From: Natrinema salsiterrestre
GTDB taxonomy: Archaea > Halobacteriota > Halobacteria > Halobacteriales > Natrialbaceae
Direction: 5' to 3'
DNA length: 64,000 bases
Assembly: GCF_029502005.1 (NCBI RefSeq)
Contig: NZ_JAMQOT010000001.1
Span: 496,001-560,000 of the forward strand
How positions within the stretch are numbered: position 1 is the first letter of the stretch; every line of letters begins with the position of its first letter. Shown here one piece after another: positions 13,027 through 42,415 of this stretch. The notes under the pieces were generated by a model. It saw only the letters and a program-made list of their open reading frames with translations, was not told the DNA's origin and ran no database searches. Both the position numbers and the translations under genes were made by a program.

Positions 13027-13209
13027 GAAAACAATAGGTATAAGTTACAACGCAGTGACGATTAGATCGGAGGCTGCGTCTCCGGAACGGGGGCAGCGTA
13101 CAAATGCCCCGGGTGCTGACACACCCGAGACGCGGCTTCCAAACCCAGACCAGGGTTTCAGGAAGCATGATTCCGTACATTCTACCGGGATATAAACGTC
13201 CCGCACGAC
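13027..13209 (+). ncRNA. Structured RNA/leader element, copy 1
   Basis: Begins with a conserved promoter (GAAAACAATA then TATAAG at 13039-13044). Downstream fold: hairpin GGAG/CTCC with 7-nt loop; GGGGCA/TGCCCC; CGGGTG/CACCCG; a two-storey stem GCTTCC/GGAAGC enclosing AAACCC/GGGTTT; and CGGGA-tataaacg-TCCCG. Compared with copies at 31261 and 42221, loops vary while stems are kept. Pair-preserving changes occur in the second stem (A-T here, G-C in the others) and in the inner stem (A-T here, T-A in the others). It runs towards the zinc-finger gene at 13270. No known RNA family recognised. Confidence 0.7.
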
Positions 13210-13269
13210 AGCCGAATCGCCCGACACGAGTAGCGTCAACGTCAAAACCGGACTCGAGGCGCGATCCCC

Positions 13270-13464
13270 ATGCCTGACGACAGCGACCCGGTCGCGGACC
13301 GCCTGTCGTCCCAGCCCGACTGTCCGAACTGCGGCGAGCCGGTCAGCATCCTGACCTCGAGCAGGCTGTACAGGGGCACCGCCTACCCCTGTGGCTGCTC
13401 GGTCAATCCGGTTCTCCTCACGACCGATCCCGCCGACCGCGGACTGGGGACGGGGGACGAATGA
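13270..13464 (+). CDS. CPxCG zinc-finger microprotein (family A), copy 1
   Basis: 64 residues. Core PDCPNCGEPV, then GTAYPCGCSVNPV: two C-X2-C-like knuckles (CPNC and CGC) fit one zinc site. Acidic N- and C-termini, no signal peptide. The same family is encoded after the other two structured RNA elements (31493, 41924). Its stop overlaps the next start (ATGA), making a two-gene unit. Function unknown; haloarchaea encode many CPxCG microproteins, some with regulatory roles in biofilm and metabolism. Confidence 0.85.
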   Translation: MPDDSDPVADRLSSQPDCPNCGEPVSILTSSRLYRGTAYPCGCSVNPVLLTTDPADRGLGTGDE

Positions 13465-13604
13465 CCGGGCCTCGAGTCGCAGAGTCGAAGCGCTGTCCCG
13501 ACTGCGGGGCAGTGCTCCCGCTCCGCGATCCGCTGATCGGCTGGTGGCTCTGTGACGACTGCGAGCTCGGGGTCGACGAGAACGGCGAGCGAGTCGCGGA
13601 ATAA
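13461..13604 (+). CDS. CPxCG zinc-finger microprotein (family B), copy 1
   Basis: 47 residues starting MTGPRVAESKRCPDCGAVLP; the second knuckle WLCDDCELG completes a four-cysteine zinc site. It overlaps the preceding gene by four bases, so translation is probably coupled. A close homologue follows the same gene at 31681 (identical LPLRDPLIGWWLCDDC core). Too short for most gene finders, but its conservation in two loci supports it as real. Function unknown. Confidence 0.8.
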   Translation: MTGPRVAESKRCPDCGAVLPLRDPLIGWWLCDDCELGVDENGERVAE

Positions 13605-31260: not shown

Positions 31261-31438
31261 GAAAACAATAGCTATAAGTAACAATGCAGTGACGAGTAAG
31301 TTGGAGGCCACGTCTCCGATAGGGGCGTGCGTAAACGCCCCGGGTGTTAGAGCACCCGAGACTGGCTTCCAAATCCCCCTAAGGGATTCGAAGCCATGAT
31401 TCCGTACATTCTACCGGGATATAAACGTCCCGCACGAC
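31261..31438 (+). ncRNA. Structured RNA/leader element, copy 2
   Basis: It begins with the same promoter block (GAAAACAATA, TATAAG at 31273-31278). Stems: GGAG/CTCC with 7-nt loop; GGGGCGT/ACGCCCC (7 bp); CGGGTG/CACCCG; TGGCTTC/GAAGCCA enclosing AATCCC/GGGATT; CGGGA/TCCCG with loop tataaacg. Its stems are kept against copies at 13027 and 42221 while loops differ. It points at the family A microprotein gene 55 nt beyond its end. Confidence 0.7.
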
Positions 31439-31492
31439 AGCCGAATCGCCAGCCGCAACCAGCTTCGACGCCGGCCTCGAGGCGCGATCCCC

Positions 31493-31684
31493 ATGCCTGA
31501 CGACGACCCGCTCGCAGACCGCCGGTCGTCGCGTCCCGACTGTCCGAACTGCGGCGAGCCGGTCAGTATCGTGACCTCGAGCAGGCTGTACAGGGGCACT
31601 GCTTACCCCTGTGGTTGCTCGGTCAATCCGGTCTTGCTCACCTGCGACCCCGCCGACCGCGGACTGGGGACGGGGGACGAATGA
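31493..31684 (+). CDS. CPxCG zinc-finger microprotein (family A), copy 2
   Basis: 63 residues, PDCPNCGEPV ... GTAYPCGCSVNPV, about 85 % identical to the protein at 13270 by eye. The first copy has DTTDP-type and this copy DTCDP-type sequence near the C-terminus, adding one Cys. It overlaps the next gene by four bases exactly as in copy 1. The whole leader-plus-two-gene block is therefore duplicated within 18 kb. Function unknown. Confidence 0.85.
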   Translation: MPDDDPLADRRSSRPDCPNCGEPVSIVTSSRLYRGTAYPCGCSVNPVLLTCDPADRGLGTGDE

Positions 31685-31821
31685 CCGGGCCTCGAGCCGA
31701 GGGGTCCAAGCGCTGTCCCGACTGTGGCGCAGTGCTCCCGCTCCGCGATCCGCTGATCGGCTGGTGGCTCTGTGACGACTGTCTGCTCGCGGTCACCGAC
31801 GACGGCGAGCGGATCGAATGA
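31681..31821 (+). CDS. CPxCG zinc-finger microprotein (family B), copy 2
   Basis: 46 residues, MTGPRAEGSKRCPDCGAVLP then WWLCDDCLLAV: four cysteines in two C-X2-C knuckles. The core from CPDC to LCDDC is identical to the protein at 13461; the C-terminal tail differs. Translation is probably coupled to the preceding gene through the ATGA overlap. Function unknown. Confidence 0.8.
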   Translation: MTGPRAEGSKRCPDCGAVLPLRDPLIGWWLCDDCLLAVTDDGERIE

Positions 31822-41923: not shown

Positions 41924-42148
41924 TCAGTGTCGCGGCGTCCGATCGATGGTGCCCGGCAGCACCGAGCAGCCACAGGGTTCGGCGGTGCCGCTGCGCGGGC
42001 CGGTGACGGTCACGTTCGTGACGGACTCGCCGCAGACCGGGCAGTTGGGGAGCGAGAGCACCCACGGCTCGGGCGCCTCGCCCGTCTCGGCGGGCTCGGA
42101 CCGGTCGGCTCCGCTCGAGTCACCGCCCCCATCACCGTCGTCACTCAT
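41924..42148 (-). CDS. CPxCG zinc-finger microprotein (family A), divergent copy 3
   Basis: 74 residues from MSDDGDGGGDSSGADRSEP. After a ~38-residue disordered acidic head the core is PNCPVCGESVTNVTVTGPRSG, then TAEPCGCSVLPG, aligning with the proteins at 13270 and 31493 over the two knuckles (CPxCGExV ... GTAxPCGCSVxP). No family B gene follows it. It too lies directly downstream, on its own strand, of the structured RNA element (42221-42415). Confidence 0.8.
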   Translation of the reverse strand: MSDDGDGGGDSSGADRSEPAETGEAPEPWVLSLPNCPVCGESVTNVTVTGPRSGTAEPCGCSVLPGTIDRTPRH

Positions 42149-42220
42149 TGGGTCCTCCACGTGGCTCGTGGGCGCAGGCTCGAGCCGGAGCCGTCGCTAG
42201 TCGTCGGTGTTGATTCCACC

Positions 42221-42415
42221 GTCGTGCGGGACGTTTATATCCCGGTAGGATGTACGCGGTCATGGCTTTCGAATCCCGTGGTCGGGATTGGAAGCCAGTC
42301 TCGGGTGTCCTTAGCACCCGGGGCGTTTCGGGCACGCCCCCTCCGCTCGCGCGTTTGGAGCCGGCTTCCATTCTGCTTGTCACTACGTTAGTACTTATAA
42401 CTACTGCTATTTTCA
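42221..42415 (-). ncRNA. Structured RNA/leader element, copy 3
   Basis: Read on the minus strand: promoter GAAAATAGCAG with TTATAAG, then stems TGGA/TCCA with 7-nt loop, GGGGCGT/ACGCCCC, CGGGTG/CACCCG, TGGCTT/AAGCCA enclosing AATCCC/GGGATT, and CGGGA/TCCCG with the invariant loop tataaacg. It is the most divergent copy, including a ~12-nt insertion near 42350, yet every stem is intact. It leads to the microprotein gene at 42148. Confidence 0.68.

Follow-up and report, generated by a model that had tools for sequence, protein, structure and literature searches.

A multi-copy mRNA leader with two mutually exclusive pairings next to the start codon is a candidate translational switch in Halobacteriales

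Here, we describe a structured mRNA leader of haloarchaea in which two mutually exclusive pairings, those of strand B with strand A and of strand B with strand C, are conserved through covariation. Three copies lie in the window (the whole 64-kb stretch of the Natrinema salsiterrestre genome that was analyzed). From 5' to 3', the element consists of a TATA box, strand A, a linker of 1–17 nt, hairpins H2 and H3, strand B, an inner hairpin H4, strand C, the AUG, and hairpin H5. H3 adjoins H2, and B adjoins H3, with the A-B helix closing a three-way junction around H2 and H3; the inner H4 is a feature of the Natrialbaceae, and H5 starts ~20 nt past the AUG. Strand B is complementary to C as well, and the final base of C touches the AUG. 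In the Natrialbaceae, the TATA box has the context CAGTAGATATAAGT, and 67 of the 78 elements of this family have it starting 29–31 nt 5' of strand A; given this spacing of ~30 nt, the RNA is expected to start within a few nucleotides of A. The element is probably a 5' leader that runs from promoter to start codon, ~100 nt in length, or ~140 nt with its coding-region part. Most likely, it acts in cis to switch translation and represents a new class.

A first-pass annotation, made from the letters of the window, had placed a structured element at 13027–13209 (+), 31261–31438 (+), and 42221–42415 (–). All three positions were borne out by covariance-model matches at 13065–13207 (+), 31299–31436 (+), and 42223–42373 (–), and a broader model, R2, found these three elements in the window and no more. 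The promoter block, the hairpins, and a downstream CPxCG gene are common to the three copies, and the zinc-finger genes start 55–73 nt beyond the element ends of the first-pass annotation, in agreement with the 55–75 nt proposed there. The outer bounds, however, need to be redrawn: the first ~40 nt are promoter DNA, with the RNA of copy 1 probably starting at ~13065–13068, and the last ~45 nt fall within an unannotated small ORF that precedes the zinc-finger gene. We also saw the two paired changes that had been reported, GGGGCA/TGCCCC versus GGGGCGT/ACGCCCC in H2 and AAACCC/GGGTTT versus AATCCC/GGGATT in the inner H4. These local stems stand, but the long-range A-B main helix and the B-C alternative had been missed. 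When folded against dinucleotide shuffles, copies 1 and 2 gave z-scores of –5.2 and –4.9, respectively, with 0/200 shuffles as good.

In copy 1 (+ strand), the TATA box (TATAAGT, 13039–13045, in the conserved context above) is followed by strand A (GGAGGCTGCGTCTC, 13069–13082), which can form a 14-bp pairing with strand B (GAGACGCGGCTTCC, 13127–13140), the strand that is common to both alternative helices. Between A and B lie H2 (13089–13110, GGGGCA..TGCCCC, with a conserved AAA in its loop) and H3 (13111–13126, GGGTG..CACCC). The inner H4 (13141–13158, AAACCC..GGGTTT) is followed by the B-complementary strand C (GGAAGC, 13161–13166), the last base of which adjoins the AUG of the small ORF (MIPYILPGYKRPARQPNRPTRVASTSKPDSRRDPHA, 13167–13277). 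H5 (13186–13203, CGGGAT-ATAAAC-GTCCCG) is contained within this ORF, whose stop overlaps by 8 nt the start of a gene for a 64-aa CPxCG..PCGC zinc-finger microprotein (13270–13464). A second small CPxCG ORF (13461–13604, 47 aa) overlaps the preceding stop in an ATGA. Copy 2 (+ strand) has its TATA box at 31273–31279 and its structured element at 31299–31436 (A 31303–31316, B 31358–31370, C 31390–31395, and H5 31415–31432); its small ORF (31396–31500, 34 aa) overlaps by 8 nt the start of a 63-aa CPxCG..PCGC zinc finger (31493–31684), the end of which shares an ATGA overlap with a second small CPxCG ORF (31681–31821, 46 aa). Copy 3 (– strand) has a TATA box at 42393–42399, a structured element at 42223–42373 (A 42369–42358, B 42302–42290, C directly before 42263, and H5 42244–42227), and a 40-aa small ORF (42141–42263) that overlaps by 8 nt the start of a 74-aa CPxCG..PCGC zinc finger (41924–42148). 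We noted that the second small CPxCG ORFs of copies 1 and 2 contain RCPDCGAVLPLRDPLIGWWLCDDC, and that this second ORF has a relative elsewhere in the genome, located after the PadR-like ORF1 that one of the divergent leaders precedes (L183, C23:302387). A TFS/RPB9-like zinc-ribbon gene (PF02150; 12549–12866, – strand) lies directly upstream of copy 1.

The initial count of three fell well short for the genome, which has 28 strong copies and three divergent ones, as derived from DNA and covariance-model searches. A DNA similarity search of the source genome returned 27 copies, and a covariance model built from them (R1) returned 28, with a gap in E-value from 5e-20 to 0.014; this and the other E-values are rough, the models being short-calibrated. 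The broader R2 added the three divergent members (L182–L184; G000 C11:861892-862037, C23:302387-302529, and C11:769668-769794), two of which lie ahead of PadR-like winged-helix ORFs. At E ≤ 0.001, R1 matched 103 of 293 Halobacteriales genomes, with matches in 16/16 of the genus and 47/63 of the family. R2 matched all 38 genomes from outside the family that were re-tested, with up to 20 copies each, these genomes having been picked mostly for their R1 match. In a phylum-wide sample of 148 genomes, 13 matched, every one of them from Halobacteriales, and no match was found outside this order. The exact H5 string is present in Natrinema, Natrialba, and Halopiger. A search of haloarchaeal genomes with a covariance model, which had been suggested as a check, thus gave matches across Halobacteriales and covariation in the larger set. 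The link to CPxCG genes applies to the Natrialbaceae and not class-wide, the RNA class extending to other genes. Two members are apparently decaying: L021 has a truncated small ORF and a degenerate zinc finger, and L192 has lost its start region.

The first-pass reading of a riboswitch-like structured leader with base-pair-preserving changes is strongly supported, both by the covariation in the larger set and by the existence of a second, alternative pairing beside the start codon. For the 27 copies from the plain DNA search, the covariation score was 0.128, compared with 0.093 when shuffled (0/500). Among 47 diverse members, in which covariation is partly selected because the remote ones came from a pairing-rewarding model, both sides vary in 27 of 29 pairs, and the score was 0.403 versus 0.131 when shuffled and ≤0.074 in slid controls; under a tree-keeping null, 14 of the 29 pairs had p<0.01, with ~0.3 expected. 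The 27-copy test and the B-C pairing are free of this model-selection effect. In an alignment-free test, the members' own A-B (z –14) and own B-C (z –8) duplexes beat 20,000 of 20,000 reshufflings, and the advantage held within the Natrialbaceae alone. Of 149 members, 118 had a strand C with a perfect 5-mer match to the B of the same element, compared with 64 (maximum 79) when C strands were reassigned, with a mild bias in the B-C test from taking the best-pairing start codon where several existed. Changes in all three strands at once occur in L050, L051, L072, and L073 (A GAAACC, B GGTTTC, C GAAACC), in Haladaptatus (GAAGACC-type strands), in L152 and L174 (ACAACC with GGTTGTCTC), and again in L098. 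G-U cells outnumber A-C cells about twofold (141:62 and 78:35), an excess that favors a sense RNA over a DNA palindrome. The B-C pairing and the TATA spacing serve as independent checks since neither is part of the covariance model.

We also compared the computed stabilities of the two folds. With parameters for 1 M NaCl and 37°C, as opposed to molar KCl, the A-B fold (C single-stranded) was more stable than the B-C fold (A single-stranded), the median advantage being 5.7 kcal/mol in the Natrialbaceae and 7.4 kcal/mol outside this family. In many copies, no more than a few kcal/mol separate the two folds, and the mean probabilities in the free ensemble for the Natrialbaceae were 0.60 for A:B and 0.33 for B:C. 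Because A-B was computed as the stabler fold in most members, B-C may be rare or may depend on an additional, unseen factor. From these energetics, A-B, in which the AUG is free, would be the default ON state, and B-C might be an inducible OFF state.

The element continues into the coding region, with codons 8–13 contributing a hairpin or a sequence motif to it. In the Natrialbaceae, the motif is the loop of hairpin H5. Across the class, this loop is conserved as AUAAAC or CUUGAA/CAAGAA. In 72 members from outside this family, ORF bases +25 to +37 hold the motif CTTGAAnnTnnCG or CAAGAAnnTnnC(G), the Natrialbaceae counterpart of which is TATAAACGTCCCG. Base 27 is A/T in 72/72 of these members, base 29 is A in 71/72, base 36 is C in 63/72, and base 37 is G in 68/72, with close Haladaptatus paralogues making up about a third of the set. 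Outside the Natrialbaceae, some members have a strong H5 stem (CGGGA-CTTGAAAC-TCCCG); that of the SWIM type is weak. R1 covers the coding motif, hence some selection is possible; the CTTGAA/CAAGAA forms differ from the R1 consensus, and in several members R1 aligned no bases at the motif. The G+C content of the third base is 0.00 at codon 9 and 1.0 at codon 12, compared with ~0.6–0.7 further along the ORF. In L090 and L097, where strand C shares bases with the AUG (ATGACGACC), the distance of the motif is constant to strand C, not to the AUG. Moreover, a compensatory change in H5 (GGGAU..GUCCC to GAGAC..GUCUC) alters the amino acids from PGYKRP to PRHKRL. The first-pass annotation had raised the possibility that conservation follows a coding frame (ATGATTCCGTACATT) instead of the stems. 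This frame is probably a genuine one, with a stop that overlaps the zinc-finger start, but its codons 7–12 are constrained as RNA. Purely coding conservation was rejected on the basis of the non-synonymous H5 compensations, the third-base bias at codons 9 and 12, and the motif distance that is fixed relative to C.

In the Natrialbaceae, the ORF that starts at C is unannotated and ~31–60 codons long (typically 36–40), with a MIPYILPGYKRPAR-like start and then an Arg-rich, variable sequence. In 57 of 64 cases, the end of this ORF and the start of the zinc-finger gene have 4 or 8–11 nt in common, compared with a mean of 38 and a maximum of 49 upon shuffling the intervening region, a statistic qualified by the ease with which GC-rich DNA holds reading frames open. 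The start-to-start distances between the two genes take 26 different values, none of which is a multiple of three. The stop/start overlap suggests that the small ORF and the zinc finger are probably coupled in translation, as a candidate bicistron; termination-reinitiation at such overlaps has been proven for 9/9 Haloferax pairs (PMC6728339). The zinc finger itself has the pattern CPxCG-x(~18–20)-PCGC and a length of 47–90 aa. Comparison with Pfam, NCBIfam, and the PDB returned nothing above cut-off, and an AlphaFold model was of a confidence too low to use (pLDDT 68).

Outside the Natrialbaceae, the leader precedes genes for SWIM zinc-finger, PadR-like, RAMP-superfamily, TFIIB-repeat (TFB-like), and other small Cys-rich proteins. 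As a common theme, the genes under the leader encode small proteins that bind zinc or regulate transcription, and they often lie on plasmids. On Haladaptatus plasmids, leaders with SWIM zinc-finger genes adjoin divergent MarR/ArsR/HTH genes. These SWIM members comprise L079–L102, L133–L167, and L198–L200, with 27–30 matching places on one plasmid; in three of three regions viewed, the SWIM gene was divergent from a small MarR/ArsR/HTH gene, with differing palindromic operators around the TATA box. A further plasmid operon under the leader encodes a ~146-aa Cys-rich protein and a RAMP-superfamily protein (L150, L151, L159, L173, L176, and L179; plasmid matches H21–H30) and adjoins HNH, ArsR, or AAA genes; its RAMP protein is perhaps akin to type IV or III CRISPR effectors. 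We also noted an ORF1 with a TFIIB repeat under one leader (L144, genome G289; PF00382, E 2e-8), and a leader whose small ORF overlaps the start of a tyrosine-recombinase-like gene (L190, genome G024).

We consider it likely that the leader controls translation initiation in cis via two mutually exclusive folds. In the ON fold, the 5'-terminal A would pair with B over 12–14 bp around H2/H3, leaving C and the adjoining AUG free. In the OFF fold, B would pair with C instead, the final base of which lies at the AUG, and initiation would be hindered. The H5 hairpin or motif, at a fixed distance downstream and inside the ORF, would belong to the same element. In the Natrialbaceae, the ribosome would enter at the leader AUG, translate the Arg-rich ORF, and reinitiate at the overlapping CPxCG start; the switch would thereby set zinc-finger output. 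Switching in the cell, the assignment of the ON fold, and translation as the controlled step are what we infer. Since unrelated downstream proteins share the RNA, the signal is more likely to be a ligand or ion common to all, or a single conserved RNA-binding factor, than the individual product acting back on its own leader. The switch might respond to a protein: a conserved RNA-binding protein or an encoded zinc protein would bind H2/H3 or the H5 loop and shift A-B to B-C. We regard this version as a real possibility, if short of probable; many leader ORFs encode small Cys-rich proteins of a nucleic-acid-binding kind, and the conservation of the H5 loop resembles a protein site, but the products (SWIM, PadR, RAMP, TFB, and CPxCG) are so unrelated that autoregulation cannot serve the whole class, and the low-confidence zinc-finger model also counts against it. 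More doubtfully, the RNA itself might sense a small ligand or ion and toggle between A-B and B-C, with an obligatory coding hairpin, and would then be a new haloarchaea-wide riboswitch class that has expanded into ~30 parallel operons in a single genome. Zinc is offered as an example of such a ligand since many products bind zinc.

Readings with no switch at all are less probable. The fold may simply present the AUG, with the downstream hairpin pausing the ribosome and the C-B match a mere folding aid, which would help leadered mRNAs that have no Shine-Dalgarno site. Consistent with this constitutive role, C strands such as GAAACC, ACAACC, and GAACCC have no Shine-Dalgarno match, and the coding motif at +25 to +37 falls near the mRNA entry side of the initiating ribosome. 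That haloarchaeal initiation often disregards Shine-Dalgarno sites (PMC8241225) counts in the same direction. We nevertheless think it unlikely, because it leaves unexplained why B goes on matching A as well as C in lineages where all three strands have changed. A small RNA acting in trans on mRNAs with matching B or C strands is improbable, even though the element has its own promoter, a compact fold, and A, B, and C strands that resemble each other among its many copies: nearly every element examined runs straight into an ORF, with C at the start codon and the motif inside the ORF. Least credible is a feature of the DNA, be it a set of operator palindromes or a mobile-element terminus. The element is a dispersed multi-copy repeat, and in the Haladaptatus plasmid members the TATA box does lie between palindromic operators, but synteny is kept at orthologous copies, the pairing strands lie 3' of the TATA box, and G-U exceeds A-C. 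The earlier suggestion of a mobile RNA element end was not upheld, given that orthologous copies retain flanking synteny between species and copies in the same genome share no flanks; in an unsystematic look, no target-site duplications were noticed at the element ends, and the conserved unit spans from the promoter into coding sequence. Three further candidates were rejected. A terminator or attenuator would not fit, as none of the stems in the elements inspected is followed by a U-run, nor would Shine-Dalgarno masking, as C strands like GAAACC and ACAACC are not Shine-Dalgarno-like. As to a virus origin, none of 20 viral contigs that carry the exact H3 palindrome gave a convincing covariance-model match (best E 0.0017), and the SWIM protein was absent from phage records.

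The first-pass annotation recognized no known family, and indeed a search of Rfam 15 gave only tRNAs and chance sub-threshold microRNA matches; literature searches found no description of the leader element. As of 2021, the Thermococcus fluoride riboswitch was the only experimentally determined natural archaeal riboswitch (PMC8241225). Similar to that riboswitch and to bacterial translational riboswitches, the element is a 5' leader with a conserved junction and two pairings that exclude each other, of which one involves the translation start. Unlike them, it adjoins the AUG and masks no Shine-Dalgarno site, reaches into the coding region, occurs in ~30 copies in a single genome, and has no Rfam match. 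We suggest that it works like a translational riboswitch or a protein-responsive leader; as ligand binding is hypothetical, we withhold the riboswitch label. Ribosomal-protein leaders (PMC7247131) are likewise structured mRNA leaders that control translation of the following genes, control that is predicted here; the genes under the present leader, by contrast, do not encode ribosomal proteins and are mutually unrelated. The Halobacterium salinarum brz-brb operon (PMC2253796, PMC3184054), as far as its description goes, similarly encodes, on one mRNA, a CPxCG zinc finger of ~60 aa together with a small basic protein. By that description, brz precedes brb, whereas the leader operons have the basic ORF first and the zinc finger second, and the parts of the description available to us mention no structured leader. 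Haloferax volcanii CPxCG microproteins (PMC10716476, PMC6562870) are also very small and have two C(P)xCG-type motifs; the leader-linked family differs in its CPxCG..PCGC spacing, in being tied to the leader and small ORF, and in matching no Pfam/NCBIfam model at cut-off.

Structured leaders have been stated to be not typical in haloarchaea (PMC4983044). The class described here, which occurs widely within the order, with up to ~30 copies per genome and its own promoters, is a strong and testable counter-example to this statement. It brings to light a hidden small ORF in each operon and suggests a mode of regulation for a large family of unannotated zinc microproteins. Through one shared RNA, it connects chromosomal zinc-finger genes with plasmid regulators (SWIM, PadR, and RAMP-type), and it opens a route to RNA-based gene control in archaea.
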